64,000 nucleotides of DNA from Zygnema cylindricum (Eukaryota; Streptophyta; Zygnematophyceae; Zygnematales; Zygnemataceae). Both the position numbers and the translations under genes were made by a program. This document shows, one piece after another, positions 78 through 63,830 of the stretch (position 1 is the first letter of the stretch; the number at the start of each line of letters is the position of its first letter). Location of the stretch: assembly GCA_037447655.1 (NCBI GenBank), contig JBBHKE010001749.1:21860-85859 (forward strand), read 5' to 3'. The notes beneath the pieces were generated by a model. That model was not told the origin of the DNA. It ran no database searches and worked only from the letters and a program-made list of their open reading frames with translations.

Positions 78-2597
78 CTCAAGAAAAGATACGGCATCTC
101 CGTCCAATTGGAGAAAAGAAGTCGAATTGTACCAACGAGGAAGCTGGAGAGGCCATGAGGGAGAGGGAGAGGGAGAAGGAGGGTTTCTCAATTCCTGCAA
201 GTAACTGTCACAAAAGAGAGACACATGGATCTTTTAGCAAAAGGGAAAATGAGTAAAGGGGAAGGGAAAAGTTGCAAGATAGAAAGTAAGAGGTAAAAAC
301 AAAAAACAGAACATAAAGGCAAAAGGTTTAAAAGGAAAAGGCAAAACAAAAAACAAAAAAAGGAGTAAAAGGCAAAACATAAAGGTACGAGGTAAAGACA
401 AAAAAGGTATCGTGACTCTCTTTGTGAGCCACTCTTCCGTCCACATTTGCGAATTCTCTTCAACTTTACGAGATTTTTTTTCATCTTTATGAATTCTTCA
501 AATTTGCCAATTCCTCATCATATTTAATTCTCCTCGTCATTTTAAGTCCATTCTGTGATTTTTTTGTCTTTTTGTAAATAAATAACTCACTTCATTAGTG
601 TACCTCCTGCACGTACTCCCGGATTTGTCTTTTCTAAAAACCCCAAATGTTTTAACTGTTCGTCCTCTAGCGAACCCTGTCCAATTACAAAAAAGGGAGT
701 CAAAATAGTAACACATTTTCTTTGGATAGAAGCAAGAATTTAAGGAAATCTGGTTATTACAAAATTACAAAACACACAACACATAATATAATTAACTTAT
801 TGAAAAAATTGGTGACCTTGTGAAATTACTGAATTACTGCAACTCTACAAACAAAAGAAAGTTTCAAGTTTCAGTTTCAGTTTCAGTTTCAATTTCAGTT
901 TCAATTTCACATTTCATCTAAACAGAAGTTAAAAGTTGATTTTTTTGTGAACTCTTTGAATGCTATCTATTATTATCTGTTATTATCTATGATTATCTAT
1001 GATTACCTATTATTATCTATTATTATCGATTATAATCTATTATTTTGAAAGAAAAACTTAAGCGTCAATAAGGACAGGGAGAGGACCTCAGTCACGACAA
1101 AGGCTCTCGGAGAAGACAATCGATCTAAATTTTTTCCAAAAGAATTTGTCCTCCATGACTTCACAGCTTCAATTTCCGCCATTTCCTGCGAATCCATAAA
1201 ATGTACTCCGTCCACCGTATTTAGTGTGGATATGAATAAGTACAGTTAAAATCGGGAAGCTCATTTATACTCATCCACCGAAATTAGTGTGAAGACAAAT
1301 AAGTACAATTACAGTGGGGATACTCATTTTTACCCGTATAAAACAAGCCCACATGATTTCATTGCAAATATGTCCACAAAATAAGTCCCAGAAAATTAGA
1401 GTGGCTTTTTTCTTTTTTTCCTTTCCGTTATAGGATGCCCAGTTTCTCCCCTTTTCTCCTTTTTAGTGAATTTTCAGATCACGCGTGTTCCATGTTTAGC
1501 TTATATTCTGTACTACATGAGATTTGTTGTGTCAGAAAACCGTCAGAGTTTATTACATTTATCTATAAAGTGTTACAAAGATACAATTCTTTACATGAAA
1601 TTTGTTTGTTGAGAGCAGTTTGAGTTTGGCTTGCCCTAAGGGAGCACTGGAAAGAAACTACACTGCCCAACTCTGTTAGTCTTGAACAGTTTTTGAGCAG
1701 TTAAAGGCATTTAACTTATGTTCAACCGTTAATTTTTTTCTTCAAGGCGAGCAATCGGAAGGTAACAGTTTTACCTTTCTATCGTGATCTCACGATTAAA
1801 AATTGAGCAAATTTGTGATGAGAAAAACTGCATTTAGAACTTTGACTGCCCAAAAAATGTTAAACTCTACTAGAGATGGGCAGTGTACTGGTAAGCTAGT
1901 GTTGATACATTTTCGCCACTTAAAACGTTTTTTCTTCGTGCACACTGGTTGGATCGACGGTTGCGATTAAAAGGCTGAGATTCTCACCTTTCGATTGGCC
2001 GTCTCCAGTCAAAAATTGGACATGTGTGCACGGAAAAAAGATTCTTTAGGAGGCAATAAAAATAATAACACTAATAGCGATACACGGTGTACTATCAAAA
2101 TACTTTCAACACTTTTCAATACAGGTCAGGTTTGTGCTCTTTGTAGTTTTCGTATCTCTTCACATCTTCCTAATGGAACAAAAAAATGGCGACAATTCCA
2201 TAATGATAGACTCCCTCCATTCTAGCTTACAGACATCTCATTTCTTTCTTCTCCTCCCTCCCACAACTCTTTTCTTACATTTCACAGCCATTTTTGCTTA
2301 AACGAATAAAAAAAAATACCAAATCCCTGGTTTTATCGACATTCCACACGATGATTTTTAAGAACCAGGTTTTCGTTTTCTACTGAGTGAGATTTTACCT
2401 CAGAAATGACGAGTAATTCTATTGGGTCCAGCCTTTTAAGCTCCTCTTCCAGATTCTCCCTTTTCATCTCAGTCATCCAAAATTCCCCTATCAACCCTCA
2501 TCCCAACCCTCATAAATTATCAGAAATTCTCTTCATTTGAGCCTCTCAATGAGGAGAGGGAGACAGGAGTGAGGAAGGGAGATCAAAGTGAGAGAGA

Positions 2598-2649
<52 letters not shown>

Positions 2650-2654
2650 AGAGA

Positions 2655-2701
<47 letters not shown>

Positions 2702-5700
2702 AAGAAAGGGCGGGACGGTATAGAGAGAGGGAGGTTGGAGGAGCAAAAGATAAGAAAGGAATAGTGGGACGGAAGAGAGGGACAGGAAAGAGGAAGTTGG
2801 AGATAAGAGGAGATAAAGAACAGCCTTCTCTCAATAAGGAGAGGGAGAAAGGAGAGGGAAGAAGTTTGAGAAAGAGAGGAGAGGTAATAGAGAGAGAGAG
2901 ATTTTTGGAGGAAAGAAAGAGTGGGACAGAAGAAGAGCGACAGGAGACAAGCAGTGGGAGATAAGTGGAGATAAAGAACAGCCTTCCTCTCAATGAGGAG
3001 AGGGGGAAAGGAGGCAGGAGGAGGATCGAGAAAGAGAGGAGAGGTAAGGAAGAAAGAGAGAGGGAGATTGGAGGAGAGAAATATTGTAGGAAGATGTTAA
3101 TGACAGGAGGAAGAGAGGGGCAGGAGAGAGGAAGTGGGAGATGAGAGGAGATGAAGAACAACATTTCTCTCAATAAGGAGAGGGGGAGGAAGAGAGAGAA
3201 GGACAGGATAGGGAGAGGGAGATCAAAGAGAGAAAGATAAGAAAGAAAGAGTGAGACAGGCGAGAGGGACAGCAGAGAGAAAAGGAGATAAAAAGAAGAT
3301 AAAAGGTCATAAAAGGAGATAAAAGGTCATAAAAGGAGATACAAGGAGATAAAGAACCAGGATATCAAAGAGAGGGAGGAGGAGATTAAGGAACCTGCGG
3401 CCAACACCTGTTGACACGTCAGCATAGGCAAGTCCAAAAGACTGTCGCTGTCCTCCATAGACTAGTGGACTGTCCTCCTCCATAGACTTAATAATGCTCA
3501 CGATATAATTGTTTCGATTTAATGGGAGAAGATGAGGATCCAATGTAGTCCCAGGAGTCAAAATAGACGAAACTTTCCACCTGGACTGATCCATACTAAA
3601 AGCAGTATCCTTATCAACCTGTTGCAAAGAACCATTTTTAATCATTAATAGAAGGATTACAACATTAATTCCCCATTTATCGTGATTTCTTTCTTGCAAG
3701 AAAGTTAATGTCCACCTTAGCATGTTCTTGAAAAAAATGTAGTTTGATCTAGAATCCTCCAACATAAAAATTTGAACTTTTCCCAGTCAGTCGGTACAAA
3801 AGAGACATCACGAAAGTTAAATACTTTAGATATGCTGCTCCTGGTATTTTTACACAGTGAAGATGGTTACAATAGTCTCCAGGAAAACTATAGAGTCTAT
3901 AATTTTCTGTTCCTTTGAAGAATTTTGAATGGAAGAGGAAAGTACCTCATCATAAAGAGCAACTGAAAAGCCTTGTCGAATGAGACTATGTAGCTCCTCC
4001 TTCACAAGAGTACAAGAGGCTGAAGCTACTGGAACTTGTACCTCAATATCCTGTAGAGAGACATCGACCAGTTTTGAGTTACCGTTTCTGTTTCCGTTTC
4101 AGTTTCCGTTTCAGTTTATGATTTTGTTTTGGTTTTGGTTTAGGTTAGTTCAGCTGCAATCAGTTTAAAACGCAGTTTTAGTTTCAAGTCTAGTTCAAAT
4201 TTCAAATTCTTTCCGTTTCCGTATATGTTTCTATTTCCGTTTCAATCAGTTTTCCAGTTTCAGTTTCAAATTTCAGTTGCAGTTCTGGTTTTAGTTCAGA
4301 TTTCAAAGTTTCACATCAGGGATGTCAGCTATAAGACACTTTAGAAACTTTCATTGCAGAAGAGATACAAGAAAGTCGAACCATAATATGGAGAGAAGAG
4401 AACAAAGATTGCGATAAATCTGTCGACTGTCAAGCTACCTCTTTATTGGCTAATTGCAGCAAGTGTTCGCTCCCGAAGAAATGTTCTGGACAAATTAAAA
4501 ATATTTGTGATCTGCTTAAAAATAATATTTGTACTATGTTTTGACAACCCGACTCTTTTGTGAAAAACAGAGTACAAACAGACAGTTTGCCAGTTAAAAA
4601 TGTGGGGTTTTTGTGAAGTGATTAATGCATGAATCCATGGAACACTATAAGAAAGCTTCAAGATTAACCAGAACCTACATACTGGACAATTTCCAAACAT
4701 GTTTCACTCCTAAGAGAAATTTTCTGATTTTCTGACAAGTGACTGAAAGACATTACACTGCCTATCACTATCAGCGTTATACATGTTTTGTGCACCAAAA
4801 GTCTAGCTTTATCGTCAACCGTAATTTTTTTTTTTTTTATCGGAGCAACCAAAAGGTACAGGTCTCGCCTTTCAATCATGACATCAACATTGAAAATCAT
4901 AAAACTTTGTTATGAGAAAAAGTACTTTCGAGTGCACGAAAAATGTTTAACACGAAACCACTGAAAGGAGATCAACTATATAAGAAACCTCTCATGCCTT
5001 ATGGACTCACCTCTCCCCCGTTCCATGTCGACTTTTTCACTTTTAATTCCTGTGCAATAATTGCTGCATCTTCAAAATATGTCTGCATATACAAGCAGAA
5101 ATTACACTACACGTCAGCGGTTTCCATGTCTTATCCAAACCGTCAGCTAGTATTATTAACTTCAGTTTAGCTTCAGTTTAGAACCATGACAAGCATCGAA
5201 AGGGAATATAAGTTCAAGGGGAGAACATCATTTAATCTTCTGAAACATCAATTACTCTCCACTCACCCTTCACTCACCTTCCCCAAGCCCTGAAAAAATA
5301 CAAATGCCAAGTCCCCACCATTTCTGTAACAGCTTTCTTCTTGAAAATGGCTTATTTCCACCTTGACCCAAAGAATCAAGTCACCTCCCGATTAGAAAAA
5401 GGTACCCTCTCTTTCAGTTTTAGGGGAATGAGATGTGGACTACACACCTTATAGTTACTTCCAAATTGAAAAAGCAAAAGGCAGTATGGTCGAACACGTT
5501 TTATGTTCAACCAAGTCTTTAGCTCTCCTTTTAACCCGTCGATATCCACAGTATTGCTATCAAGTGTCTCTTCCCACACTCTCGCACCACTTTTATCCTC
5601 ACGTCCCACTTCAATAGCTTCCTCCAACGGCCTTCTCACAATAGAACCAGTATACCTCCCTCCCAACTCTTCCACTCTCGAATTCCCCTTAAAGTCCCTT

Positions 5701-8700
5701 TCGTCGCTCACGGTTTTTTCACTTTTTGAAGGCTTCCCAAATCTGGTTTCCGAATATTTCAGAACTACAGAGCCATCAGTCCCATTGGTAGTTTCAGAAT
5801 ATTCACTCAAAGTTGTTTCTACCCATCCTTTTGAATTTCCATCTTTAGAGAAACTTTGGTCTGTTTTATCTCCGTTGGTTTCTGCGATAACCGCGACAGG
5901 ACGAAGCAGGGAACTTTCCGTCGTGCTCCCCTCTAAAAAGGTATCTCCGGATGTTTCTAGGTCAAAAAAGCTTCTCCAATCACTCTCTTCTTCTTCTTCA
6001 CTTTCTGTATAAGCAGCGTGTGTCGAATATTTTCTGCCAGCTCCTATTTTATGCCATAAAGGAATTGTCGGACGTCCTCTCAAATCACTTTCCGAAAAGA
6101 GAGGCAAATTTGAAGAAAGAGGCGCCGTTGAGGACTTTGGCCCTTTTACTTGTTTAATAGCAAAGTCGGCTCTAAACGTAGATTTCTCTAAAGTTTTTGA
6201 AGAAAGCTTAAACTCTCGTATAAGGCATTGAAGTACATCCAGTAGCATAAGGACATCTGCCGCTGCTCTATGAGCCGGTTCTCGGGGTGGTAAGCGAAAA
6301 TGACTATGGAGACTTGTGAGCTTGTAATTCTGCAAAAGAACTGTGACATATTGTAGATGCCGATCAAAAACAGGGTGAAAAGCTCATACAGGTGGGACTG
6401 AAAATGAAGGTTTTTTGAAAGATTATGGATATTGATCAAAAACAGGGCAAATAACTCTTTCCAGGTGGGACTGAACATAAAGGTGCTCAAAAAAGGACTG
6501 GAAAGGAATAAGCCACTCAACTAAGTAATGTTATTAAGACTAATTTATGACTTTGGGTCAAAAAAACACGCAATCAAATTAGAGTTATCAACTCTTAAAG
6601 GCGATGGGCAGTGTGGAGATAAAGTACCTGTTGAATCCTTATAAAGTTCCTTGGAGAGAAGAAAAGTATCAAGAAAAACCCAATCGGATGGCATAGTGAT
6701 GTTACACAGTGAAAACTCTTTGATAAGCATTGGAACATCAAATTTTTTCCCATTGTGAGCGGCTAGACAAAGAGGAATTCCTTTTCTTCGTCGGCTTTCG
6801 ACAAAATCCACAAATGCTCGTCCTACAACATTCCAGCTGTCACCCATCCATCCCATCGTCAGGTTTTCTGCAAAATGTTTTCCACAGTTTAACTCTTTTA
6901 TGACAGAAAATAACAATACGAAGATGTGAATAGAATTAAGTATTCACATGCATATCGTCCAATCAAGCTAAATGATGTGCGCATGACATCGTCTCATACA
7001 AGATACTTTCTTTGCAAGACTTCCTCTTTTAAAACCGCATACAATTTCAGATACAATAAATGCATGAAATCGTCTAAGACAGTTTCTTGCAAGCCTTCTT
7101 CTTGTAAAACGACACACAATATATTGATACCGACTTATTCTACACTTTTGGAGTTTCATTTTGCTCTAAATCCACTGTTTATCTTCTCTTGCCTTTCAAC
7201 TGTTTAACTAAAGGCTTGTTTAATGGTTTCCCAGTTTGACATTCGTCTTATTCTTAAAACGGTTTTGAAGTTTCAACTGTTTGAGTAAAGGCTCGTTCAA
7301 TTGATTTTCATGAAAATCTCCGCAGAGAGGCTGGGATCTTTTAAGGTTCAAAAAATGTATTTGATGTTATCGTAAAATTTTAACATACACCACCTGGTGG
7401 CAGATCCAACCTTCTCCATAGTTAGAACAAACCAAAAAAATCAGTATAGATTGAAATAAGACAATACTATTTGCAAATAGAAAGTGCATTTATCCATCTT
7501 CATTAGTCATCGTTAATGATAATAAGGGCCATCATAACAACTCGAATGTAACTGAATTAAAATTGCTGCTTTTGTACAATGATACATGGAATATGTTGAC
7601 ATTCTTAAGAAAAACATTTCACAATTGATCAATTTGACCTTTCACAACTCCAGCTATTTACATCTTGACCAAAAGGAAAAGGAGGATGAGGAAAAGAAGG
7701 GGATGAAGGTAGAGGGTGTGGAGAGGAGGCAGGCAACAACTCAAAAAAAAGGAGAAGGAAAAGGCAAAACAAAAGGAGAAGGAAAGGGCAAAAAAAAAGG
7801 AAAAGGAAAAAAGGGAGGGAAAAAAATAGAAGGGGGAAACTGACTTCAGTGTATCAAAGTCAGATAGGCAGTAAAGAGGCGAAAGAAAAAAGCAAAGAAG
7901 AATAAGGAGGAGAACAAAAAGGAGAGGAAGAAGGAGAAGAGGAGAGAAAGGAAAATGAAACGGAGGGAATCGGATGTATCTAAGCCAGACAGGGGCAGAA
8001 GGGGCAAAGGAAAAAGGAGAAGAAGAGAAGAAGGAGAACTGTCTCTGGCGTATCTAAGCCAGAAAGGGGGTAAAGAGGCAAAAGAAAAAGGAGAAGGGGA
8101 AGAAGGAGAAGAAGAAAAGGCAAAAGAAAAAGGAGAAGAAGGAGAAGGTAAAAAGGCAAACAAAAAAGGAGAAGAAGGAGAAGATAACGAGGTAAAAGTA
8201 AAAGGAGAAGGAGAGGATACACAAGGCAAAAGAAAAAGGAGAAGGAGATGAAGGAGAAGAAGAAGAGACAAAAGAAAAAGGAAGAGGAGGAAAAGAAGGG
8301 GAATGGAGGTAGAAGCGGAAACTGACTTCGGTGTATCTAAGGCAGAAGAAGAAGGAGAAGGAAAGAAGGCAAAAGAAAAAGGAGGACAAGAAGGGGAATG
8401 GCGGTAAAAGAGGAGAAGAAAAAGAAACAAAAGAAAAAGGAGGAAAAGAAGGGGAACGGTAAAAGAGAAATCTGACTCCAACGATCTACGCCAGACAAAA
8501 GGTAAAAGAAAAAGGAAGGAGAAGAAGAAGAGGCAAAAGAAAAAGTAGGAAGAAAAGAAGGGAAATGGTAGCAAAGAGGAAACTGACTCGGTGTACATAA
8601 GCCAGACAAATGGCAAAAGGGAAAGGAGAAAGAGGAGAAGAAGGAGAAGAAGAATTAAACGGAAGAAAAGACGAGAAATGGAGGCAAAAGAGGAAACTGA

Positions 8701-9702
8701 CTCAGGCATATCAGATCTCCACACATGTTCTGTGCAGATTTTGTGAACTTTCGCGGCTTTGTCATCCACTGCCACCTTAGGGTTCACCAAAGCTTGCATG
8801 GCGCTCATTGGTCCACCTGCCAGGTCACGAGCAGCCACCTCTATGATTTTGCCATGTGGCAGAAAACCAGTAGTTTCCAAGTCAAAGCCAATCACCACAA
8901 TCTCATCGTCTTTTCCGCTAAAAGTCGGATGATGTTCGGCAGCGAAAGCTCGAGGAATGAAGGAAGGTTTTTTAGGTGGATAGGGTTTAGGGGAAGGTCG
9001 AATTAGGGTCACTTTTCTCGGACTGGTCTCACTATGGCTGTCAGTTTTGGTTCCTTGGAAGGGTTTACCAGGGGATGTGAAAACTGTTGGATAGCCTCTT
9101 TTTGCAACTGTGGACATTGTTGCAGTTGAGTTATTTGCAATTTTGCGGAATTTGGAAGGGTTTGTGACGTCAGAAAGAATCAAAAAGCGTCGTGAGGAGG
9201 AGGAGGAGGAGGAGGAGGAGGAGGAGGAGGAGGAGGAGGAGACAGATGGTTTTGTGTGCATGTGAGACAAAATAGAGACTGGACTAAATGACATGTTTTG
9301 AAGAGAAGCTTGAATGCTCGAACGAGATTGGAAGGAAAAACAGTTTCCGGAATTTAAGGAACCGGAAGGATTCGACATCGAAAAAGAGGAAAAAATACGA
9401 AAAGTTCGTGAGTGTTGACGGCAACAAACGGCCAAAACAGAACATTTTGGTCTCACGTTCTGCATTTTAAGTTCTGAATCAAGTGGAAAAGTCCAATTTT
9501 GACCAGAAATTGATAATTTTTTTGCTTCTTTATCTAACAGAAGAGTTGATCGTCCACTGTCGGAAAAGGACAAAAAAGTCAAATTTGAGTGTATGGAAGT
9601 TTTGTCATTATTCGTTACGGATTTCCGAGAGTGACAAACATGGCAGGAAAAAGGAGATGAAATCGAAGAGGAAAGCATGGCATGCCCCTTTTTCTCCCTC
9701 AA
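78..9702 (-). CDS. Organellar DEDDh exonuclease-MutS fusion protein (3' part lies beyond the left edge)
   Basis: Exons on the minus strand: 9702-8702, 6836-6628, 6340-5448, 5082-5011, 4050-3946, 3618-3408, 2487-2399, 1185-1087 (tentative), 676-591, and 186-78 (an alternative acceptor would start it at 194). All junctions are GT-AG and phases agree throughout, giving about 958 residues before the window ends. Seen: a Ser/Thr-rich N-terminus resembling a plastid or mitochondrial transit peptide, a poly-Ser run, a DEDDh exonuclease domain (about residues 270-440), a Ser/Glu-rich linker, then MutS domain I, connector and the start of the core. Known: plant DPD1 is an organellar exonuclease that degrades organelle DNA; MutS proteins bind mispaired or branched DNA. 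Inferred: an organellar DNA repair or turnover enzyme coupling both. The start could be 9702 or the Met at 9678, which gives a more typical transit peptide. The ATPase domain is not in the window. Exon 1185-1087 has a weak donor (GTCCTC). Confidence 0.85.
861..916. repeat. (TTTCAG)n hexanucleotide repeat
   Basis: About nine near-identical TTTCAG/TTTCAA units in an intron of the exonuclease-MutS gene. A second, more degenerate run of the same unit is at 4,084-4,320 in another intron of the same gene. Confidence 0.8.
1659..1887. mobile_element. TACACYG TIR element, subfamily alpha
   Basis: The ends are TACACTGCCCA and TGGGCAGTGTA, exact inverted repeats. The interior resembles the elements at 4,754 and 35,012 (TTTCxATCGTGAT and GATGAGAAAAA blocks). 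It lies in an intron of the exonuclease-MutS gene. Confidence 0.8.
1886..2091. mobile_element. TACACYG TIR element, subfamily beta
   Basis: Right end is CTAATAGCGATACACGGTGTA. The interior has paired CGTGCACAC / GTGTGCACG arms and a GATTGGCCGTCTCC block, as in the copies at 61,221 and 61,869. The left end is degenerate and abuts the preceding element. Confidence 0.7.
2557..3395. repeat. GA-rich microsatellite and degenerate repeat (CT on the gene's sense strand)
   Basis: Pure (GA)n from about 2,584 to 2,700 is followed by degenerate copies of an AGATAAAGAACAGCCTTCTC...GAGGAGAGGG block, roughly 170 bases per unit. It fills an intron of the exonuclease-MutS gene. Open frames through it are only Arg-Glu or Ser-Leu low complexity. 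Confidence 0.9.
4084..4320. repeat. Degenerate TTTCAG/TTTCCG repeat
   Basis: Many imperfect GTTTCAG/GTTTCCG units lie in the intron between two MutS-coding exons. Same unit as at 861-916. Confidence 0.7.
4754..4955. mobile_element. TACACYG TIR element, subfamily alpha, right end lost
   Basis: The left end TACACTGCCTATCACTATCAG is followed by an interior matching the element at 35,012. The expected CAATGGGCAGTGTA end is missing. Confidence 0.65.
6250..8897 (-). other. DEDDh (DnaQ/DPD1-like) exonuclease domain of the fusion gene
   Basis: All five catalytic positions are visible. Exo I is GFDLETTGF (Asp and Glu), Exo II is HNGKKFD (Asp), Exo III is AHRAAADV (His and Asp). The order and spacing match Arabidopsis DPD1, including LAGG after Exo I and NPK..., HKICTEHV before the first intron. 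The donor after ...SDMP (8702, GTCAGT) and the acceptor at 6836 (GACAG) restore exactly the DPD1 spacing between DMP and FVESR, which decided this acceptor over one about 40 bases upstream. The domain appears catalytically intact. Confidence 0.88.
7675..8701. repeat. GAAGGA-rich array containing copies of the exon 1 splice junction
   Basis: Intron 1 of the exonuclease-MutS gene is mostly AAGGAGAAGG-type repeat on the plus strand, pyrimidine-rich on the gene's sense strand. Embedded at about 7,836, 7,960, 8,036, 8,313, 8,465 and 8,575 are diverged copies of a block (GAAACTGACTTCGGTGTATC and similar) that matches the real exon 1 donor region at 8,690-8,725. Confidence 0.75.
9194..9241 (-). repeat. 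(CTC)n trinucleotide run coding poly-Ser
   Basis: About 16 uninterrupted GAG units on the plus strand are read as consecutive serines in the N-terminal region of the exonuclease-MutS protein, upstream of the catalytic domain. Confidence 0.9.
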
Positions 9703-12050: not shown

Positions 12051-15000
12051 ATGGTGGCCGGCTCCGGGATTCACGCCAAGGTGGTGGTGGTAGATGCCAG
12101 GCACCACATGTTAGGACGCCTGGCGTCTATTTTGGCAAAGGAACTTTTAAACGGACAGAAAGTGGTGAGTAGGGAGGGTGAGGGAGAGGGAGGGAGAGGG
12201 AGAGGGAGGGAGAGGGAGGGAGGGTGAGGGAGGGGGAGGGAGGGAGAGGGAGAGGGAGAGGGAGGGAGAGGGAGGGAGAGGGAGGGAGAGGGAGGGAGAG
12301 GGAGGCAGGGTGAGGGAGGGTGAGGGAGGGAGAGGGAGAGGGAGAGGGAGAGGGAGAGGGAGAACAAAGAGATTTGGAGAATTGAGAGGCAAAGGGAAGA
12401 GAGATAGAGGCGTGGGACAGGGAGAAATATGTCACTGAGACAGGGAGAGGGAGAAGGAGAAGGAAAGCCTTAGGGATCCAGGGAGAGGTCGAAGGTGAGG
12501 GAGAGACCTATGAGGAAATGCAGAGGCTGAGGGAGAGGGAGGGAGAGGGAGGGAGGGTGAGGGAGGGTGAGGGAGGGAGAGGGAGAGGGAGAGGGAGAGG
12601 GAGAGGGAGAACAAAGAGATTTGGAGAATAGAGGGACAGGGAGAAATATGTCACTGAGACAGGGAGAGGGAGAAGGAGAAGGAAGGCCTTAGGGATCCAA
12701 GGTAGGTCGAAGGTGAGGGAGGCGGGTGAGGGGAGACCTATGAGGAAATGCAGGGCTGAAGAAAGGTAGGTTAGGGGGGAGAGAGGGGGAGAGAGATAGA
12801 GGAGAGAAAAAGAGAGATGCTAGAGGTGAGGATGGAGAGACCCGGACGCATAATGTGTTTATGTGAGAGGTAGAGAATGAAAAGTAGGGAAAGAAAAACA
12901 GAAAGAATGAGTTCATTTGGTGTAGGGAGACTGAGACAGATGGAGATGAATGAAGGGTCTAGAAAGGAAGAGAGAGTGCAAGAGATATGAGAGATTGAAA
13001 GGATGTTTCAAGAGGAAATCCAGTATATTAAAAAGCGGGATTAGGGTTTAGGAGAGCATTCAGTCAAGTGGAAACGATGGCTAAGGGATTAAAATTCAGT
13101 ATTATTCAGGAATGGTCAGGGTTTAAGATGAAATTTAAGAGAGTGAGAAGAGGGTTTAAGGGGAGCATTGGTCAGCGAAAATGTAAGGAACATAGGGATA
13201 AACTAGTTTTTGTTTAGGAAAAAATTAATCTTACGTTCAGTTTTAGGGAGATAAAAGTAGGTTAAGGAGAAATTGGCCCACCCTATTTTTTGCTGTTTTG
13301 ATTTTTACTTTCTTATGTTTCGAATGTTTGGAATTTTGAGTCACTGATTGTGAAATTGGAAAGAGAGACTTGAAGATTAGGACAGAAGCAAAATTGAGGA
13401 ATAGTGAAAACCCTAATAGGGGTAGGGAAATGGTGAAAGGAGTACAGGGAAATGGTGGAAGGCGAAGAGGGTTAGAGAGGAAGGGAGGGGGGGAAGAGAT
13501 GGAGGGAGAGAGGGAGAGAGGGAGAGAGGGAAAGAAAGGGAGGCAGGGACGGAGGGAGGGAAGGGGGGTGGGAGGGAGTGAGAGAGGGAGAGAAAGGGAG
13601 AAAGAGAGGGATGGAGGATTGAATGTGGGGAGAAGAAGGGAGAGAGGAGGAAGAGAGCCAGAGAGGAAGGAAGAGGGAAGAGAGAGGGAGAGGAGGGAGA
13701 GAGCGAGGGAGAGAGGGAGAAGGGGGGAGAGTGGGAGGGAGAGATGGAGGGAGAGAGCGAGAGAGGGATAGAGAGAGTGAGAGAGCAAGAGGCAGAGACA
13801 CATGGGGGATTTAGCAGAGGGAGGGAGAGAGATAGAGAGTGTGAGAGAGAGTGAGTTGCGAGCTTGGATATTCTGTTAATAGTGGGATTTCCACACAATA
13901 ATTCCCTTGTTGATTCGGCTTTTGATTGGATAATTTTCATGTGATGAATTCGACCTGATTTGGTTTGATTTGACTTGCTTTGATTTGAATTGAACTGATT
14001 TCAATTCACTTCATATCAATAGATTGACTTTGGGGGAATCTAGGAATTATACCTTTCCGGAGGATTGGTTCTATGAAAATTCTTTGACTTTTGTATGTTA
14101 AGACGGAATTTTTTTGGCCAATTATGAATGGCATTCAAAGTTTTGTTTTTGGGCGTGTTTTTTGTTTGTCTTTAACCAGGTTGTCACTCGATGTGAGGAG
14201 ATTTGCCTTTCCGGAGGATTGGTTCGTCAGAAAATGAAATATCTTCGATTTTTGAGAAAACGAATGAACACAAAGCCTAGCAAGGGACCCATTCACTTCC
14301 GTGCCCCTGCAAGGATTTTGTGGAGGACTATCAGGGGGTAAGTGTATTCATGCTGTTATTATATTTTTTCAGTTTTTCTGTTACAATTCCTCATGCCAAG
14401 AAAGAGCTGTATTTGGAGGATGAGGGAGTGGGAATAGAAGAGGGTGAGGGAGAGGGAGAGAGAGACTGCATTTTTTAGTAGCTGAGAATTAAACTTACTT
14501 TAGTACATCTCCACTGTAGTAAATGTGTACCACAATTGATCGGACCGAGTTGTTTTTTTGCCATGTGAAAACATGTAACGTAGATTATAATAATTCTGTA
14601 CATGTGACTGCTGATTGTGATTGAGCATGTTTGTTTTGGTTTAAGTTCTGTTTGGCTGTGGTGTGGTTTGGTAACTTGTGGTTAAGGTTTGGATTTGTTT
14701 GGTTTGGATGTGTTTGGTTTTGATTTGGTTTGGTTTAGGTTTGGAGTAGGTCTAGGTTCTGGTTAGGTTTAGGTTGCGTGTAGGTGTAGGTTTGATGCAG
14801 GTTTAGGTTCAGGTTTGGACTGGGTTGGTTTGTTTTCTTTGTGGTTCAGTTCTTTTTTAGATTTGGTTTAGGTCTGGGTTTAAGGTCAGGGTTCAAGTTT
14901 AGGTTTGGTTTGGTCTGGTTTGGTCTAGGTTTGTTTCTGGTTTTTCAGTGTTTACATTTTAAGAAAGGATTTTCATAATGGTAGATTTTTCCTTAAGTTT

Positions 15001-17606
15001 CTTTTGTTAGATTTTTATGCTGAATTAATAAAGGTAGGCAAATAGATGTGCACAAATCGCATAAATCACATGTTAGTCATCATAATTGCTTAGGTGAATA
15101 TGTCATTGCTTTTGCGAATATTACCTCGCGTGAAGGTTTTTTCCCTAGCTGTTAACTTGAATGGAATAGTAAATATTGTCAAATACTTCTCATAGCATGC
15201 AAATATACCATCATCAATTTATTCTTTAGTTTCCTGAATTGAATTTATTATTGGTTTTCAGAATGATCCCACACAAGACCAAGAGAGGCGCAGCTGCCTT
15301 GGAGAGGCTTAGGGCATTTGAGGGAATTCCCGCTCCTTACGACAAGGTGAAACGTGTGGTCATCCCCGATGCTCTCAAGTAAGTTGCAGAAATACTTCCA
15401 TTTTATTTGCTTAAAGAGTTTTTGTTTTGTTTCTCTAATGTTTCCTTTTCATTTCTCTAAATTGTCCTTTTTTCTTTTGTAAAGTTTCAATCTTATTTTC
15501 CCTTAGTTTTTATTTTATTTCTTTAATTCTCTGTTTTTTTTTTTATTGTCGTTCTTATTTTTAGAAAAAATCTGTTCTTTTTCTGTAAATTCTCCTTTTT
15601 ATTTTCCTGGAGTTTCTTTTTCACTGTAAAGAACTTTAGTCTGAAAACCTTTTTTTCTTATTGGTACTTTCTTTTCACTTGATGACACGGCATTTCTCTA
15701 TCTCTATTGCCCTTTCTTGCCTCCGTATTTTTTGTTCTGGTACTTTTTTTGAGGTTTGTTAGGTCCTATATGACAGGGACTCTCTATCATCCTCTCTTAC
15801 CTCTGTGTTCTTTGTTTGGGTACTTCTTTCTGACGTCTGTTCTCTCACTGTATGACAGGGTGTTGCGACTCCAGCCCGGCCACAAGTTCTGTCTTCTCGG
15901 CCGTCTTTCACACGAAGTGGGCTGGCACCACTGGGATACCATCAAGGTTTGTTTTTTTTTACATTTTTTGGTTTTTTTTCCTCCTTTTTTGTATTTTTTT
16001 CATTTTTGAGGGATTACTTTTGAAGCCTTCTCCTAACTGCTCTGGAGGCATAGTAAGCCTGGAAGAAAGCCGTTTGCTTTTAGTCTCGGTCTAGAGTTTT
16101 GAGTTTTTTGTTCTGGTTTTCTGTTTGGATTAGGGTTAAAGTGAGGGTTTGGAAAGGTCGCTGTGAACCCCTATTAGTGTAATGATACTTATCTGGTGTC
16201 CTTTTTTGCTGCCCGCTGAATGTAAAATACTATTAATAATACCAGTTGCTATTTTCTTAACTCTCATTTGGTAAACGGTCGAAAATCATCCAAACTTGAA
16301 CCTAAGCTAGACTTATCCCCCCGCCATGTATTTTTTATCACTAATAATGATTCACGGTGTAGTGTGGCGATGAAGCTTAAGATTTTTCTCCCCGGTCAGA
16401 CACAATTTTTCAATTGGACTTAGATTGATTATTTGGTAGTCAACCTTAATTCTTGTGTATAATGTCTAATTTTATGACCAGCGGCTGTACTTGTCGGTGT
16501 CGAGGTTCGCTTGTTGACTTCATATTGGATTATGAACTTCATAGTTCGGAATTGTTAAAGGAATTATTAGTGTAAAGGCGAAGTTAGTGTTGTACTAATT
16601 TAATGTAGGGATATGTGGCGAATTGTAGTTGATCCCCAACTTTTATGTAAATTAGTACAACACTATTTTATGAATTTGGGCTAAAAAACACTCGACCGAA
16701 GTTTGGTTTTAACGCTGTAGATGTGAATGTAGGTTGAGAAGACTTGCAATTTTTTTTGATCTTCAATATCGCTGTAGTGTCAAGCAGGTTGTGTATATTG
16801 TTTATCGCTAGTACTGTTAAAGAAACATGAGAATTAATGACAAAAAAGGGTCCATAATACTAGTGTAGTCCAGTATGGCGTGGCCGATTTAAGGCCACCC
16901 CACTTAATAGTGTTAATGCTACTATATTATGATTTTCGGCCAGAAAAAATGGCCTTCCTATTAGTGTTATTAACACTAGTAGAGATAGGTAGTGTAGTTT
17001 GTCTTTTTCTGTGTCGCCGTCAAGCTTGTCTACGAATAACCTAAAAACCTGTGGAAAAACACCTTAAAAAACCCTTAGAATTCTAGATACCCTAGGAACT
17101 CTAGTAACCCTGAGAACCTGACAAACAACCTAAAAAACATCACAAAAACTGCAAGAAAACCCTGAAAAAGCTCTACAGCAATCCTCAAAATATCCCGGAA
17201 AAGACCCATGAAATCCCTTCGAAAGCTCAAAAACCCTGTGAAAACCCGAAAACCCAGTGAAAACCCGAAAACCCTCTGAAAACCCTTTGAAAACCTGCAA
17301 ATTGAAAACTCTTCGAAAACCCTCCAAAAACCCTTCAAAAACCCTTTGAAAACCCTTTGAAAACTCGTTGAAAACATGAAAACTGTTGGAATACCCTTAA
17401 TTTCCCGTGAAAGTAAAAGTTTCTGTAAAGTATGTTGGTGTGAGCAGGAGTTGGAGGAGAAGCGAAAAGAGAAGTCGGCCGAGTACTACAAACAGAAGAA
17501 GGTCGCGGTACAGAACCGGCTCAAGGCCCAAAAAACCGCCACAGAGCAGCTCACGGACGACCAGAAGGCTGTTTTGGCGACGATTTCCTACACCGGGACA
17601 GAGTGA
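12051..17606 (+). CDS. RPL13A: 60S ribosomal protein L13a (uL13)
   Basis: Five exons: 12051-12164, 14180-14337, 15262-15378, 15859-15946, 17448-17606 (stop TGA at 17,604). All junctions are GT-AG with matching phase; the product is 211 residues, close to the roughly 206 of plant L13a. It is a structural protein of the cytosolic large ribosomal subunit. Seen: [15 protein letters not shown] at the N-terminus, [73 protein letters not shown], and the basic C-terminal helix [18 protein letters not shown]. The start has a good context (CGCCATGG). Intron 1 is the longest (2,015 bases) and holds GAGGGA repeats. AATAAA at 17,939-17,944 is a possible poly(A) signal. Identification is secure. Confidence 0.97.
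12165..12612. repeat. GAGGGA minisatellite in RPL13a intron 1
   Basis: Near-perfect GAGGGAGAGGGAGG units run from the exon 1 donor to about 12,365. A second block at 12,520-12,612 shares the flanks AACAAAGAGATTTGGAGAAT and GGACAGGGAGAAATATGTCA, showing a segmental duplication of about 240 bases. The repeat is purine-rich on the sense strand, unlike tracts in the other genes. Confidence 0.9.
13480..13860. repeat. GAGGGA/GA-rich degenerate repeat, RPL13a intron 1
   Basis: Nearly pure purine sequence on the sense strand. Open frames on both strands here are low-complexity artefacts. Confidence 0.88.
14640..14945. repeat. GGTTTAGG-type degenerate repeat in RPL13a intron 2
   Basis: G/T-rich stretch of imperfect GGTTTAGGTTTGGTTTGG units. 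It resembles degenerate telomere-like sequence but has no regular (TTTAGGG)n array. Confidence 0.6.
16162..16371. mobile_element. Degenerate TACACYG TIR element
   Basis: The right end CTAATAATGATTCACGGTGTA is clear. The left end (near CCCCTATTAGTGTAATG) is worn. It lies in RPL13a intron 4. Confidence 0.5.
16840..16995. mobile_element. Degenerate TACACYG TIR element
   Basis: The right end is CACTAGTAGAGATAGGTAGTGTA. The left boundary is uncertain. It is in RPL13a intron 4. Confidence 0.4.
17040..17400. repeat. GAAAACCCTTT minisatellite immediately before RPL13a exon 5
   Basis: About 30 imperfect AAAACCCTTTG / AAAACCCGA units of 10-11 bases lie in the 3' part of RPL13a intron 4, about 50 bases from the exon 5 acceptor. 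Confidence 0.8.
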
Positions 17607-21697: not shown

Positions 21698-21912
21698 TAT
21701 AACCTTCATTCTCCTATCTGTTTCTTCTAAATTCGTTTTTTTTTCATCTCTCCTTTTCACATTAAAGAAATTGTGAGAATCTTACTTAACCTTTACTATA
21801 CTTAAAAAAAAAAAAAAAAAGTTTCGACTATATTTATTCGACGTGACAAAAAATACATAGAATCCGTTAAAACCTCCGTAAAAACAATCGTCTTTTTTAG
21901 GGTTTCCACACC

Positions 21913-23310
21913 ATGACTCAATTTGCCAAACCTAAACCACAACCTAATCCAAATCAAGCTTTTCGTCGTCTTCGTGAATTTGTTACGGAATGGGAAACGG
22001 AACAACCTCACATGGACACTGTTATGGCTTCCCCGGAATCTCAGGCAGCTTTAAAAGAAGTTTACATCAAAATTTCACCTGCCCAAAAATCTTTTCTTCT
22101 CGTCCCAACTGCGTCAGGAATCCATTCTCAACCGAAACTTGTTTACGCTCTTCTCGACGTTTTAAAAAGCCATAATGTTCCTGGATCCACTTTAATGGGT
22201 ACAAATGCGGTTAAATTTGGTATCGGTAACTGCGGTTCCGTACTTTTGTCGTACTTTGATTCCATTAGACCGGCGGCTTTGCATGTTGCAACGGAACTGG
22301 AAACGGAAAATAATTCTGAATCAACAACGGAAACTGAAACAGCGGTACCGACTGGAACTGTTACCGGAACTGAAACTGAAACTGGAAGTGGAACTGGAAC
22401 TGAAACTGAAACTGGAACTGGAACTGGAACTAGAGCTGGAGCTGGAACTGAAGCTGTAATTGGAACTGTGGCTGGAACTGTGGCTGGAACTGTATTAGGA
22501 CATGGAACTGCATCCACGACGCCTTCCCAGGAATCTTCCGATCCGGAGATTCCCGAAGAAAAAGTCAACGGGGAGGAAAGAGACATGGGTTTATTGGAAA
22601 ATGAGGAGAAGCTTCCTGGAAGCAACATGGAAGCACGAGAAGGCGGCGGTGTGGAAACTGAAGAGGGAACGCAAGAGAGAGAGGGAGAGGGAGTAGGAAT
22701 GGGAGTGGGAGCGGAAAAGGGAAAGGATGAGGGAGAGGGAGAGGGAGAGGGAAAGGAAGAGATATCGACGATCGAGGGTTTAGCGATGGCTGGAGGAGCT
22801 CTTGTAGCAGGAGGAGTAGCAGCTGCGACAGGTGTCACGTTTTTGGCAGTTAGTGGGGCGGCCATAGCTGGAGGAATGGCGGCGGCCACCCTGGCTTCGG
22901 GATTGACCGGAAATACGGATTCGAAGGACAAGGATATCGTCGATAAGGTAGAAAAGGAGATGGAAGGGAAAGGAGAGGGAGAGGGAGGGGTTCGAGGAAC
23001 AACGGTCGAAGATAAGCGGATGGTTAGTGAGGAGAGTAGTATGGGAGAGACAGGATTGGAGGGAGGGGAGAAGGTGGGAGTGGGGAAGGAGGAAGGGATT
23101 GGAAAGAGTGGGAGAGTTGGGACGGGAGGGAAGGAGGAGGGAGAGGGAGAGGGAGGGGGAGAGGGAGAGAAAGTGGGGAAGCCCATGGGTTCGAAAGTGG
23201 CCGCGGCTCCGGAGGAGGGAGAAAAAGTAGAAAAAGTCAAAGGGAATAAAAAAAAGTCAAAGTGGAGAATGACATGTTGTACTGATCCTAAGGCTCGAGA
23301 TGAGTGGTAA
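21913..23310 (+). CDS. Low-complexity protein of unknown function, intronless, 465 residues
   Basis: I do not recognise this protein. Residues 1-130 are an ordinary, probably helical globular segment (FRRLREFVTEW, LVYALLDVLKSHNVPGSTL). Residues 135-205 are Thr-Glu-Gly repeats from a GGAACTGAAACT-type DNA repeat. About 295-335 is a Gly/Ala-rich hydrophobic stretch (MAGGALVAGGVAAATGV, then FLAVSGAAIAGGMAAATLA) with a glycine-zipper pattern that could form one or two membrane hairpins. The rest is Gly/Glu/Lys-rich, ending SKWRMTCCTDPKARDEW. ATG context is CACACCATGA. The complex N-terminus, telo-boxes and an open frame with no introns support a real gene. The antisense frame of 505 residues is a shadow. 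Function unknown. Confidence 0.65.
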   Translation: MTQFAKPKPQPNPNQAFRRLREFVTEWETEQPHMDTVMASPESQAALKEVYIKISPAQKSFLLVPTASGIHSQPKLVYALLDVLKSHNVPGSTLMGTNAVKFGIGNCGSVLLSYFDSIRPAALHVATELETENNSESTTETETAVPTGTVTGTETETGSGTGTETETGTGTGTRAGAGTEAVIGTVAGTVAGTVLGHGTASTTPSQESSDPEIPEEKVNGEERDMGLLENEEKLPGSNMEAREGGGVETEEGTQEREGEGVGMGVGAEKGKDEGEGEGEGKEEISTIEGLAMAGGALVAGGVAAATGVTFLAVSGAAIAGGMAAATLASGLTGNTDSKDKDIVDKVEKEMEGKGEGEGGVRGTTVEDKRMVSEESSMGETGLEGGEKVGVGKEEGIGKSGRVGTGGKEEGEGEGGGEGEKVGKPMGSKVAAAPEEGEKVEKVKGNKKKSKWRMTCCTDPKARDEW

Positions 23311-23625
23311 GATTGTTTCTCAAGAAAAGTGAAGGAAAAGTAGGGAAGGAAAGAAGGGAAGGAAAAGGAGTGAAGGAAAAGAATGGAAAAAAAAGAGGAG
23401 AAAAAAAAAGAAGGGGAAGAAACAAAAAAGGGAAAGAAAAACGAGGGAAAGAAAAACGAGAGGAAGAAAAAAACGGGAAAGAAAGAGAAGGGGAAAAAAA
23501 GAAGGCAAAGAAAAACGGAGTGGAAAAAGAAAGGAAAGGGAAAGAAGTCAAACGGGAATAAAAATAAGTCAAAGTGGAGAATGACAAGTTCAACAAATTT
23601 GAAAACTCGTGATGAATGATAAAGA
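23230..23625 (+). repeat. Duplicated C-terminal coding segment downstream of the stop
   Basis: The block AAGTCAAAGTGGAGAATGAC ... GATGAxTGxTAA ... TTTCTCAAGAAAAG at 23,255-23,335 recurs at 23,565-23,655. The second copy would encode SKWRMTSSTNLKTRDE then a stop. Between them is a Lys/Glu-rich AAG-repeat segment. Confidence 0.75.
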
Positions 23626-26796: not shown

Positions 26797-29700
26797 TCAA
26801 GCTACCTCATTTGCAGTCGAAGGACCGGCTGTTAAACGAAGCTGATCATTTCTAAGTTTCAAATTCTCCTCTGCCTTAAGATTTTCTAGGTCACTTCCAT
26901 TCGCCAAACTGTTAAACTCCACCGATTTCGAGGGAAGAGCCGGATAATTTCGTTGACAAAGTGTCATAAGTCGTTTCACCGATTGTAGATATTTTCGAGT
27001 GGTCTCGTCGTTCATAATATGAGCCACACTATTAGTGTGGATCTTTTCTCGAGCACTACGTTCGTGGATACCCACCATAGTCACACCAATGGGCCATGGA
27101 GCGTTTCCGATAGCGAGTTTAATGTATTTATCCATGGCCGCCAAATAATTTCGTTCTCGACAAGCCTTTACTATAAACATGAGAGCCTCTCTAATGTCAT
27201 CGTATAATTGCTGCAATCACCGATCAAAAGGACACAGTCAAAAACGACTCGCCAAAGCAGAAAGGACAGGAAAATGTTTTAATAACAGAGTAGGCGGAAG
27301 ATTTGAAAGAAGAAAGGGAAAATGGTTTAATAGAAATTATTTTAATAGCTTTTACTGTAATGAGGGGAGCTTCCATTGCCGTCGCAAAAAGGACAAGTCA
27401 ACCAACTGGTAAAAAACGCAGAAAAACAGGAAAATAATAGAATAGAAGGAGAGGAAGACGTTTTAACAGATGGAAACCCAGTAGACAGTGAGGCTCTTTA
27501 TGATGTTTGGAAGGTATAGAACGCTGTCATATGTTGAGTGCTTAAACTTAACGGTAATAAGACAGAAGTTAAGCGAGCACAAACGGTGCAAGCTCACATA
27601 TAGTAGTAAAATAAAAAACTGCTGGTGTGATAATGAATACAACAATCAATTGATCTTAATCTACAAGAACAATGATCGACAGGGTCCACTTGACCTCTAA
27701 TTGACCTCTCCAGTGGGCTCCTCCATCCTTAGGGGGTTTACGGAGTTGCAGCTATATTCTAGTTCTATCTGTTTTAGGGTTTTGGTGAACTTTGGGTGGA
27801 TTTGACTCTAGGCCGGGATTGATTTGGTTAGGCCTGGAATGAGTTCAATTAATTTGATTAGGCTTTCTATGGAATTTGTCTTTTTTAAGTCTTTAATTTT
27901 GGATTTGGTTCTTAATCTTCTATATTAATTCACGACCCAGGGGTTTTGGCATTCTTAATTTGTTTCTCCATTTTTCCATTGTGTTCGAGTTGTCTTCCTT
28001 CAAGGGCTGTTCTTTAGCAAATAATATCATTATAAATGAAACAAAAACAAATCTAAAGATATAATCGCTATGAGCGTTAAGAAACATATAGCGTGGGGCT
28101 TATTTTAGCAATTTTTAATCCTAATATCACTCTGAGCGACGTGGAGGATTTGCAAACGCTTACTAAACTAGCATTAAGAAAAATTATTTAATATTGCTGA
28201 AGTTAATTTATGCTCAGGGGTCAAACAAAACCGGTGCCAAATTAATATTTTAACGCTAATAGCGATTCACGGGCGAGAGAGGGACAGAACGTAAAGGAGA
28301 GGAAAAGAGACGGAGGGAGAGGGGGGGGGGAAGTCGGATAGAAAGAAAAGGGAAAGAGAAAGAGGGAGGAAAGGAGACATTGAGAGAGAAATGGTAGGGA
28401 GAGAGAGAGAGGAAAAGGGACAGACAGAATTACTGGGCACATTTATGATTATCATAGTTATGACTGATTATTGTTATGTAAGTTTTTTTCTTAATATAAT
28501 TCAGACACATCCTAGAAAGCGCATCGAGATACTGAACAAATTATGATAAATATGTTATAACTAATTATTACTACAATTATATTAACTAATTATTACTACA
28601 ATTATATTATTAACATTAGTATCTTCAGATTCATAATTCTTTTTTTTAGACATTCAAAAAAGAGGAAAGAGCATTATGAGCATTATTGCCATAATTAATT
28701 ATTCACGATTGGGGTTAAGAAACATTCATGAATTTAAACTACATTACAACGTGAAACACTATTAAGTTTAAGAAGCATATATCTGGGGATTAATTGGGTT
28801 TATCAAAACAAATTAAGGTCCAAACGACGTGGATTATTTTTTATCACTTACCAAATTAGGGTTGTGCACAGAAATGTTAGAATTATTAACGTGTGTTTAG
28901 GAGCAGATTTAATACTGAGCACATTATCATTATTATTGTTATGATTACTATCATATTAGCCCATTATAATTAGCCAATAAGTTATGATTCCCAGACTCAA
29001 AGGATGCCAAATCAATGTTGGAATTCTCAGATTGAAAGGATTTATGAAATTGATTCAAGCAAATTATAAACCTTTTTCGACACATTCGATAAAAGAAAAT
29101 CGAGATACCGAGCACATTATGACAATTACTGTTAATTTGTTACTTATTGTTATGATTATATAATTAGTTTTAATACGATTTTCAGATTCATACCTTTTTT
29201 CGACACATTCGAAAAAGGGGATCGAGATATCGAGCGCATTGGCGATAAGTTGCAAAAACGGCTCTCCCAAGTTGAGTCCTTTTCTCTGCCTCTGGCCTCT
29301 CCTCCAATTCCTTTTCCCACTCTTTCAGTATCCTTTTAAAGAAAACCAGTATCTTATCTTCCTCACAAAGATCTTCAAATTTGGCTCGTAATCTCTTACT
29401 ATCGATATCATTATCATCATCATCGTTGTCATCTTTTCCATTTGTTCCCTTCCCTCCCTCTCCATCTTGTTTGCCTTCTCCCTCTCCCTCGCCACCCTCC
29501 TTATCTGTATGCTTCTCCTTCTGATTCTCTACAATTCCTCCCTTCAATTTTCTCATATCTCTCAAAAAGTCATTTTGTTGACCGTCCGTAATTTCTGCAT
29601 CTCCTTCCACTTCTCCTGTCTTCATTAAAACCTTTAACCTTATTAACCTATCCTCATCATCTTCTCCAAAAATAGTTATTGGCTGTTTTAAAAGACGGAG

Positions 29701-30024
29701 ACGACGAATTACTTCGGTTTTCGGTAAAACTAATTTGTCGATTACATCTTCACTATTATCAGTAGAATCATTATTTAAAACATTTGATTTTCCAGAACTG
29801 CCTCCCTGCTGTTGAGAAGAACCTTCCCTCACTGTTTTAGAATCATGACCTAAAAAAGATTTGAAACTAGAGTTTTTCTTCTTCTCTATTTCTTGTCTCT
29901 CTTCTTCTCTCAGTTGGTCAAGTTTCTTCTGCTCAATATCTCCCCTTCTTATGTACTTCTTTCCACTACCGGCTTCCGCCAAAGCTTTCCTTTTCTTTTC
30001 TAATTCTTTTTTTAAAAAGTCCAT
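26797..30024 (-). CDS. PRP18: Pre-mRNA-splicing factor 18 (PRP18)
   Basis: Two exons, 30024-29194 and 27210-26797, joined GT-AG in phase 0, give 414 residues; plant and animal PRP18 are about 340-420. It is a U5-associated factor acting at the second step of splicing in the nucleus. Seen: MDFLKKELEKKRKALAE start; the SFM/PRP4-type motif VIRRLRLLKQPITIFGEDD (about residues 105-125); an acidic linker with an Asp-rich run; KILVFFKRILKEWEKEL and the PRP18 domain with the signature KLAIGNAPWPIGVTMVGIHE and RKYLQSVKRLMTLCQRNYP. The exon junction falls after LFRMCRKK and resumes QLYDDIREALMF, matching the family. The 1,983-base intron holds a degenerate TIR element. The C-terminal tail after EFNSL is longer than in human PRP18. 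Confidence 0.95.
28061..28273. mobile_element. Degenerate TACACYG TIR element in the PRP18 intron
   Basis: Left AATCGCTATGAGCGTTAAG and right ACGCTAATAGCGATTCACGGG resemble the family ends. Outer bases are lost. Confidence 0.4.
28274..28425. repeat. GA-rich tract in the PRP18 intron (CT on sense)
   Basis: GAGAGGGACAG / GGAAAGAGAAAGAGGGAGG purine-rich stretch on the plus strand. Confidence 0.75.
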
Positions 30025-30192
30025 TCTAAAAAGAGTGCTAAAAAAGAAAATAAAATAAAAAACTGTCGATAATAACTAATAAACTATACGGAAATGCTCA
30101 AATATCAGAAGCTAAATTAGGGAAAAGGAGGAAAAGAAATAAAGACGCCTCTGCTCGGGAATAAGATGCGCGGAAACTCTATTCTAGAGATT

Positions 30193-53295: not shown

Positions 53296-60874
<7,579 letters not shown>

Positions 60875-62929: not shown

Positions 62930-63830
62930 ACCGCCTCTCTCTTTGCCTCTCTCTTTGCCTCTCTCTCTTTGCCTCTTTCTTTGCCGCTCTCTTTGCCTCT
63001 CACTTTGCCTCTCTCTCTTCTTCTCTCTTTTTCCTCTCTCTTTTCCTCTCTTTGTCCTCCTCTCGTTGCCTTTCTTTGCCTTTTTCTTTCCCTCTGTCTC
63101 TGCTGCTCTTTTTGCTGCTCCCTTTGCCGCTCTCTTTTCTCTTGTTTTTCCTCTCCTTTTGCATCTCTCTTTGCCTCTCTATCTCTCTTTGCCTCTCTCT
63201 TTGCCTCTCTCCTCGACTCTCTCTTTGACTCTTTGCCACTCCTTATGCCGCTCTTTTTGCCTCTTTCACTCTCTCTCTTTTTGCCACTCTCTTAGCCTCT
63301 CTCTTTGCCTCTCTCTTTGCCTCTTTCTTTGCCTCTCTCTTTGCCTCTCTTTGCATCTCTTTGCATCGCTTTGCCTCTCATTGCTTCTCTTTGCTGCTCT
63401 CTTTGCGTCTCCCCTGCCTCTCTCTTAGCCTCTCTGTTTGCCTCTTTCTTTGCCTCTCTTTGCATCTCTTTGCATCGCTTTGCCTCTCTCTTTGCTTCTC
63501 TTTGCCGCTTTCTTTGCGTCTCCCTTTGCTACTCCCTTTGCTACTCCCTTTGCCTCTCTCTTTGCCTCTCTTTTTGCCTCTCTCTTTGACTCTGTCTTTT
63601 TCCCTCTCTTTGTCCCTCTCCTTGCCCCTCTCCTTGCCTCTCTCGCTTCTTCTCTCTTTTGCCTCTCTATTTGCCTCTCTCTATCCCCATCTTTGCCTCT
63701 CTCTTTGACTCTCTCGTTGCCTCTCTGTTTCCTCTCCCTTTTCCTCTCTTGTCTCTCCCTTTGTCTCTGTCCTTGCCTCGCTCTGTGGCCCTCTCTTTCC
63801 TCCCTCTCTACCCCTCACACTGCCCCCCCT
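62930..63830. repeat. CTCTCTTTGCCT repeat, about 0.9 kb
   Basis: Imperfect tandem units of about 12 bases (TTTGCCTCTCTC) with variants such as TTTGCATCTC and CTTTGCCGCTCT. A higher-order duplication is visible: TTTGCATCTCTTTGCATCGC at about 63,351 and again at 63,461. All frames across it are Leu/Ser/Phe low complexity. Confidence 0.9.

Follow-up and report, generated by a model that had tools for sequence, protein, structure and literature searches.

DPD1-MutS1 is a cyanobacterial-like MutS1 protein with an N-terminal DPD1 exonuclease, present in many Viridiplantae, among them Physcomitrium and the chlorophyte Cymbomonas (Sloan et al. 2024, Plant Cell, PMC12292046). In that paper, organelle targeting is predicted for many members of the family, not for all, and the land-plant copies of Diphasiastrum and Ceratopteris are without the DPD1 part, perhaps as incomplete gene models. 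The authors propose that the fusion could remove strands in mismatch repair or act on invading strands in recombination, and state that they are aware of no plant in which the function of DPD1-MutS1 has been studied. Hofstatter and Lahr (2021, PMC7884376) had earlier reported that photosynthetic eukaryotes carry a mutS of cyanobacterial origin, and full-text searches for papers naming both DPD1 and MutS1 yielded nothing beyond Sloan et al. (PMC12292046). Here we describe a 64,000-nucleotide stretch of Zygnema cylindricum DNA (contig JBBHKE010001749.1, forward-strand positions 21,860 to 85,859; hereafter the window, with positions counted from its first letter), which very probably carries the 5′ part of a nuclear green-lineage DPD1-MutS1 gene, a putatively plastid-derived MutS1 preceded by a TREX/DPD1-type DEDDh exonuclease. 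A preliminary description of this DNA held that no DEDDh exonuclease–MutS fusion had been described, a claim that fails against the 2024 paper; the fusion architecture is already known, and the loss of the Phe-x-Glu (F-x-E) mismatch motif is the one feature of some interest.

Three other systems invite comparison. Plant MSH1 also pairs a MutS with a nuclease and acts in organelles, as is presumed here, but its nuclease is a C-terminal GIY-YIG domain, whereas here it is an N-terminal DEDDh exonuclease. An exonuclease–RecG fusion joins the same kind of exonuclease to an organelle DNA-processing protein, with the helicase RecG and not MutS as the partner. Arabidopsis DPD1 (AT5G26940), orthologous to the fused domain according to PMC12292046, is likewise a DEDDh exonuclease and degrades organelle DNA, but it is a free-standing protein there and fused to MutS here.

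The gene lies on the minus strand, where ten exons running from 9,678 to 78 form an in-phase frame of 956 codons with no stop, and all nine introns (9/9) are GT-AG. The exons were joined by hand from the minus-strand letters; because the splice sites were picked manually, the open frame is partly a product of its construction. Independent support comes from the score gains across exon 3 (below) and from Pfam, which finds three domains in the joined protein, in the order RNase_T (residues 263–431, 1.3e-15), MutS_I (669–779, 1.6e-16) and MutS_II (789–921, 6.8e-15). The predicted product is that of a single gene fusing a DPD1/TREX-like DEDDh exonuclease to a MutS1-type MutS, as the preliminary description had proposed and as the ten-exon frame, the Pfam order and the score gains across exon 3 bear out. 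Exon 3 is followed by seven further exons instead of the five first described, reaching down to position 78 at the start of the MutS core, and the earlier gene bounds are corrected: the start codon lies at 9,678, and 6,836 is the most likely first base of exon 2. The exon 2 acceptor was selected by phase and by how well the product suits the exonuclease family. The AG immediately before 6,867 is out of phase with the exon 1 donor; an alternative in-phase pair, with the exon 1 donor 3 bases later and an exon 2 acceptor farther upstream, may add about 20 residues. The gene leaves the window after exon 10, so that the window holds the first third of MutS only, and the core and ATPase domains presumably continue beyond it.

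Exon 3 is where the two proteins meet. Only one frame is open across its 893 bases, stops numbering 16 and 24 in the remaining two. When 20,000 sequences of matching composition were drawn from a first-order Markov model, none had any frame open from end to end. The head of the exon encodes the interior of the exonuclease (KLTSLHSHF...AHRAAADV) and its tail the interior of MutS domain I (RPYCLLLFQFGSNYK). Added to exons 1–2, the head raises the RNase_T score from 46.4 to 63.8 bits (a gain of 17.4), and the tail, added to exons 4–6, raises the MutS_I score from 42.6 to 65.7 bits (a gain of 23.1). The frame is free of Met between residues 427 and 761, so a separate MutS mRNA would lack an ATG start before domain I. 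Given the score gained from both ends of exon 3 and this Met-free stretch, the fusion is well supported from the sequence, and the earlier account of 5,448–6,340 as one open frame bridging both domains holds under the frame test and the score gains. Accidental joining of unrelated frames was rejected on the ten-exon frame, the Pfam domains, the exon 3 gains and the Markov test. Of 97 MutS loci drawn from collections of prokaryotic, plasmid and viral DNA, none has at least 150 open codons upstream of MutS domain I; the upstream frame is closed by a stop in 93 and reaches the end of the DNA in 4, the longest being 141 codons.

The exonuclease part carries the full DEDDh catalytic set (D266, E268, D359, H419 and D424), with spacings of 2/91/60/5. 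The residues given for Physcomitrium DPD1-MutS1 (D276, E278, D370, H431 and D436; PMC12292046) yield calculated spacings of 2/92/61/5, which differ by at most one residue. Compared with sequences of the Protein Data Bank (PDB; 33 matches), it finds TREX2 first (8e-08 and 1e-07), then an exodeoxyribonuclease III chain (1.3e-07) and TREX1 (2.5e-07); TREX2 is also given as the nearest solved structure to the Physcomitrium exonuclease domain (PMC12292046). The conserved catalytic residues and spacing point to a predicted 3′–5′ exonuclease activity. Upstream of this domain, the N-terminus is rich in Ser (17 of the first 70 residues), and import of the protein into plastids and/or mitochondria is plausible.

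The MutS part of the predicted protein is of the bacterial MutS1 type and includes domains I and II. All 16 PDB sequences that it matches (16/16) are named MutS, the best at 9.5e-15; this is E. coli MutS, in keeping with the naming of entry 7AI6 by Sloan et al. The NCBIfam models NF003810 (3e-34) and TIGR01070 mutS1 (1.4e-29) both match below their whole-protein cut-offs, as expected for one third of MutS. The Pfam, PDB and NCBIfam matches agree with the preliminary description in placing this part with bacterial-type MutS over plant MSH1; membership of MSH1 is not favoured, because of the MutS1 type and the clear MutS_II match.

For the origin of this part, relatives were collected by a prokaryotic genome scan with a five-row alignment (A1), from which the 80 highest-scoring of 545 confirmed loci were kept, and from plasmids (4 of 24 matched records). 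Cyanobacteria stand at score ranks 1, 2 and 6 among these best 80 of 545 prokaryotic and 4 plasmid loci. From the 84 loci, 27 Bacillota or Chloroflexota rows in excess of a cap and one locus with too short a translation (L084) were left out, and the tree was built from 56 loci and the window row (57 in all). In the best tree, the window MutS groups with 8 cyanobacteria (support 76/59.8), and the wider grouping that takes in four Melainabacteria and a ninth cyanobacterium has support of 92/88.5; neither grouping is starred. A phylogeny had been suggested by the preliminary description, and for the MutS part its outcome is divided: the best tree leans cyanobacterial, and other bacterial placements are not rejected. 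The best tree and the literature lean towards a possible cyanobacterial, that is plastid, origin. As for a viral source, viral_contigs scanned with a single protein yielded 6 pattern matches, from which no relative was confirmed, and none of the 13 viral MutS loci from the alignment scan has at least 150 open codons upstream; this source was rejected.

Several observations weigh against a plastid-derived, organelle-targeted DPD1-MutS1. The support for the cyanobacterial placement is weak, the window row sits on a very long branch (4.02; median 0.34), and the row most identical to the window row is from Chloroflexota (33% over 248 columns). Alternative placements with alphaproteobacteria (p-AU 0.375), Bacillota (0.228) and Chloroflexota (0.321) are not rejected, the Chloroflexota test having been added after inspection of the tree. 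In composition, 6 of the first 70 residues are acidic and only 2 are Arg. The fusion itself is read from genomic sequence, and membership in DPD1-MutS1 follows the published description of the family. By that description (PMC12292046), the window protein and DPD1-MutS1 are alike in domain order, in the five catalytic residues, in their spacing to within one residue, in MutS1 type and in having TREX2 as the nearest structure.

The difference lies in the F-x-E motif, whose residues Phe36 and Glu38 touch the mismatch in E. coli MutS (PMC12292046). In a gap-free alignment, the window reads G-S-N-Y-K-T-Y-F-E-D-A against G-D-F-Y-E-M-F-F-E-D-A, so that N-Y-K stands in place of F-x-E, with Phe replaced by Asn and Glu by Lys. 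F-x-E is present in all 83 bacterial rows (83/83; FYE in 75, FFE in 8), a census made without L084 and from loci retrieved with two patterns, one of which spanned the motif but permitted N and K. One or both residues are reported lost in Zygnema circumcarinatum and in two ferns, Ceratopteris and Adiantum (PMC12292046), a loss that by its description is similar to ours. N-Y-K at the contact sites, taken with the published losses, suggests that the protein is probably not a mismatch sensor; ordinary mismatch recognition by Phe-x-Glu is unlikely, and the MutS sensor of the preliminary description becomes doubtful.

What the fusion may do instead can be put tentatively. The MutS clamp would load onto branched or recombining organelle DNA and would keep the fused exonuclease close to 3′ ends, which the exonuclease could then trim, limiting recombination or clearing its intermediates. 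We give such clamp-plus-exonuclease action on branched or recombining organelle DNA a chance a little short of even. Slightly more speculative is the step that, in this lineage, DPD1-MutS1 no longer senses mismatches and now serves solely in recombination or end processing, the clamp placing its own 3′–5′ exonuclease on organelle recombination intermediates. If true, this form would be a natural separation-of-function variant of the DPD1-MutS1 family. Because its exonuclease is intact while its mismatch motif is gone, this copy offers a natural test of DPD1-MutS1 function: should organelle genomes still be protected by motif-less copies, the fusion acts by recombination or end trimming, not by mismatch repair. 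Apart from the lost motif, the gene confirms the published architecture.

The strongest competitor to the recombination role, itself improbable though worth keeping in view, is that the same protein yet repairs organelle mismatches, either through other contact residues or with a partner MutS, such as plant MSH1, as the sensor, the fused exonuclease then removing the nicked strand. MSH2, which is without the mismatch motif, works in this way with MSH6 as the sensor. Domain I is kept whole here, and strand removal in mismatch repair is among the roles proposed for the fused DPD1 (PMC12292046), but both contact positions have changed against a motif kept by every bacterial row of the census. Much less plausible is a decaying gene whose MutS half has been released from selection: N-Y-K in place of F-x-E and the very long terminal branch would fit such decay, whereas the 956 open codons, the nine GT-AG introns and MutS_I and MutS_II matches still far above cut-off speak for a maintained gene. 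The idea that adjacent genes for a MutS1 and for an organelle exonuclease were falsely merged across exon 3 draws on the exon 3 protein, which by itself matches neither RNase_T nor MutS_I in Pfam (only HigB-like, at 12.5 bits with a cut-off of 27), but it is hardly credible beside one open frame that finishes the exonuclease and begins MutS with score gained at both ends, no in-frame ATG between the domains, and the same fusion published in relatives (PMC12292046).

Table 1 Features of the window, numbered from its first letter
Feature	Position	Strand	Content	Basis
Exon 1	8702..9678	-	Start codon at 9,678, Ser-rich presumed transit region, exonuclease motif I FDLETTG (D266, E268)	Splice model and RNase_T match
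Exon 2	6628..6836	-	Exonuclease motif II AHNGKKFD (D359)	Splice model and RNase_T match
Exon 3	5448..6340	-	Exonuclease motif III AHRAAAD (H419, D424), linker, start of MutS domain I	
Linker, residues 432-668 (237 aa)	5523..6233	-	No Met; no Pfam match above cut-off	
Codons AAC TAT AAG (N691 Y692 K693)	5448..5456	-	Place of the F-x-E mismatch motif	Alignment and motif census
Exon 4	5011..5082	-	MutS domain I	Splice model and Pfam
Exon 5	3946..4050	-	MutS domain I	Splice model and Pfam
Exon 6	3408..3618	-	Last part of MutS domain I (ILTPGT) and first part of domain II (YADVSTG)	Splice model and Pfam
Exon 7	2399..2487	-	MutS domain II (connector)	Splice model and Pfam
Exon 8	1087..1185	-	MutS domain II	Splice model and Pfam
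Exon 9	591..676	-	End of MutS domain II	Splice model and Pfam
Exon 10	78..204	-	Start of MutS core (domain III)	NF003810 match reaches last residue
RPL13A (uL13)	12051-17606	+	Several exons, start codon 12,051	Joined by eye from frames
PRP18 splicing factor	26800-30075	-	PRP4-like motif and Prp18 domain, at least 2 exons	
Myo-inositol-1-phosphate synthase	55884-57699	-	Exons	
469-codon open frame	21901-23307	+	Start resembles a coding exon	By eye
Long purine/pyrimidine strand-biased simple repeats	2551-3353, 7742-8703, 12171-12610, 13474-13855, 22664-23546, 62933-63807			

Across the 64-kb window, no tRNA was found and no Rfam match reached the gathering threshold. Of the neighbouring genes in Table 1, RPL13A scores 334–343 bits against six uL13 chains and about 248 bits against another; the six are presumably plant chains (tobacco, Arabidopsis, tomato and wheat) and the 248-bit chain is human. 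One chain of 398 residues, matched in two stretches, has a higher summed score (437.9) and was set aside, and no green-algal chain was recognised among the 60 of 91 RPL13A matches listed. This neighbour fits a green-lineage host, possibly a streptophyte. The 469-codon open frame has no Pfam match at 0.01. Several of the simple repeats sit within introns, both in the fusion gene and in RPL13A, and such repeats give rise to long, spurious open frames of low complexity.

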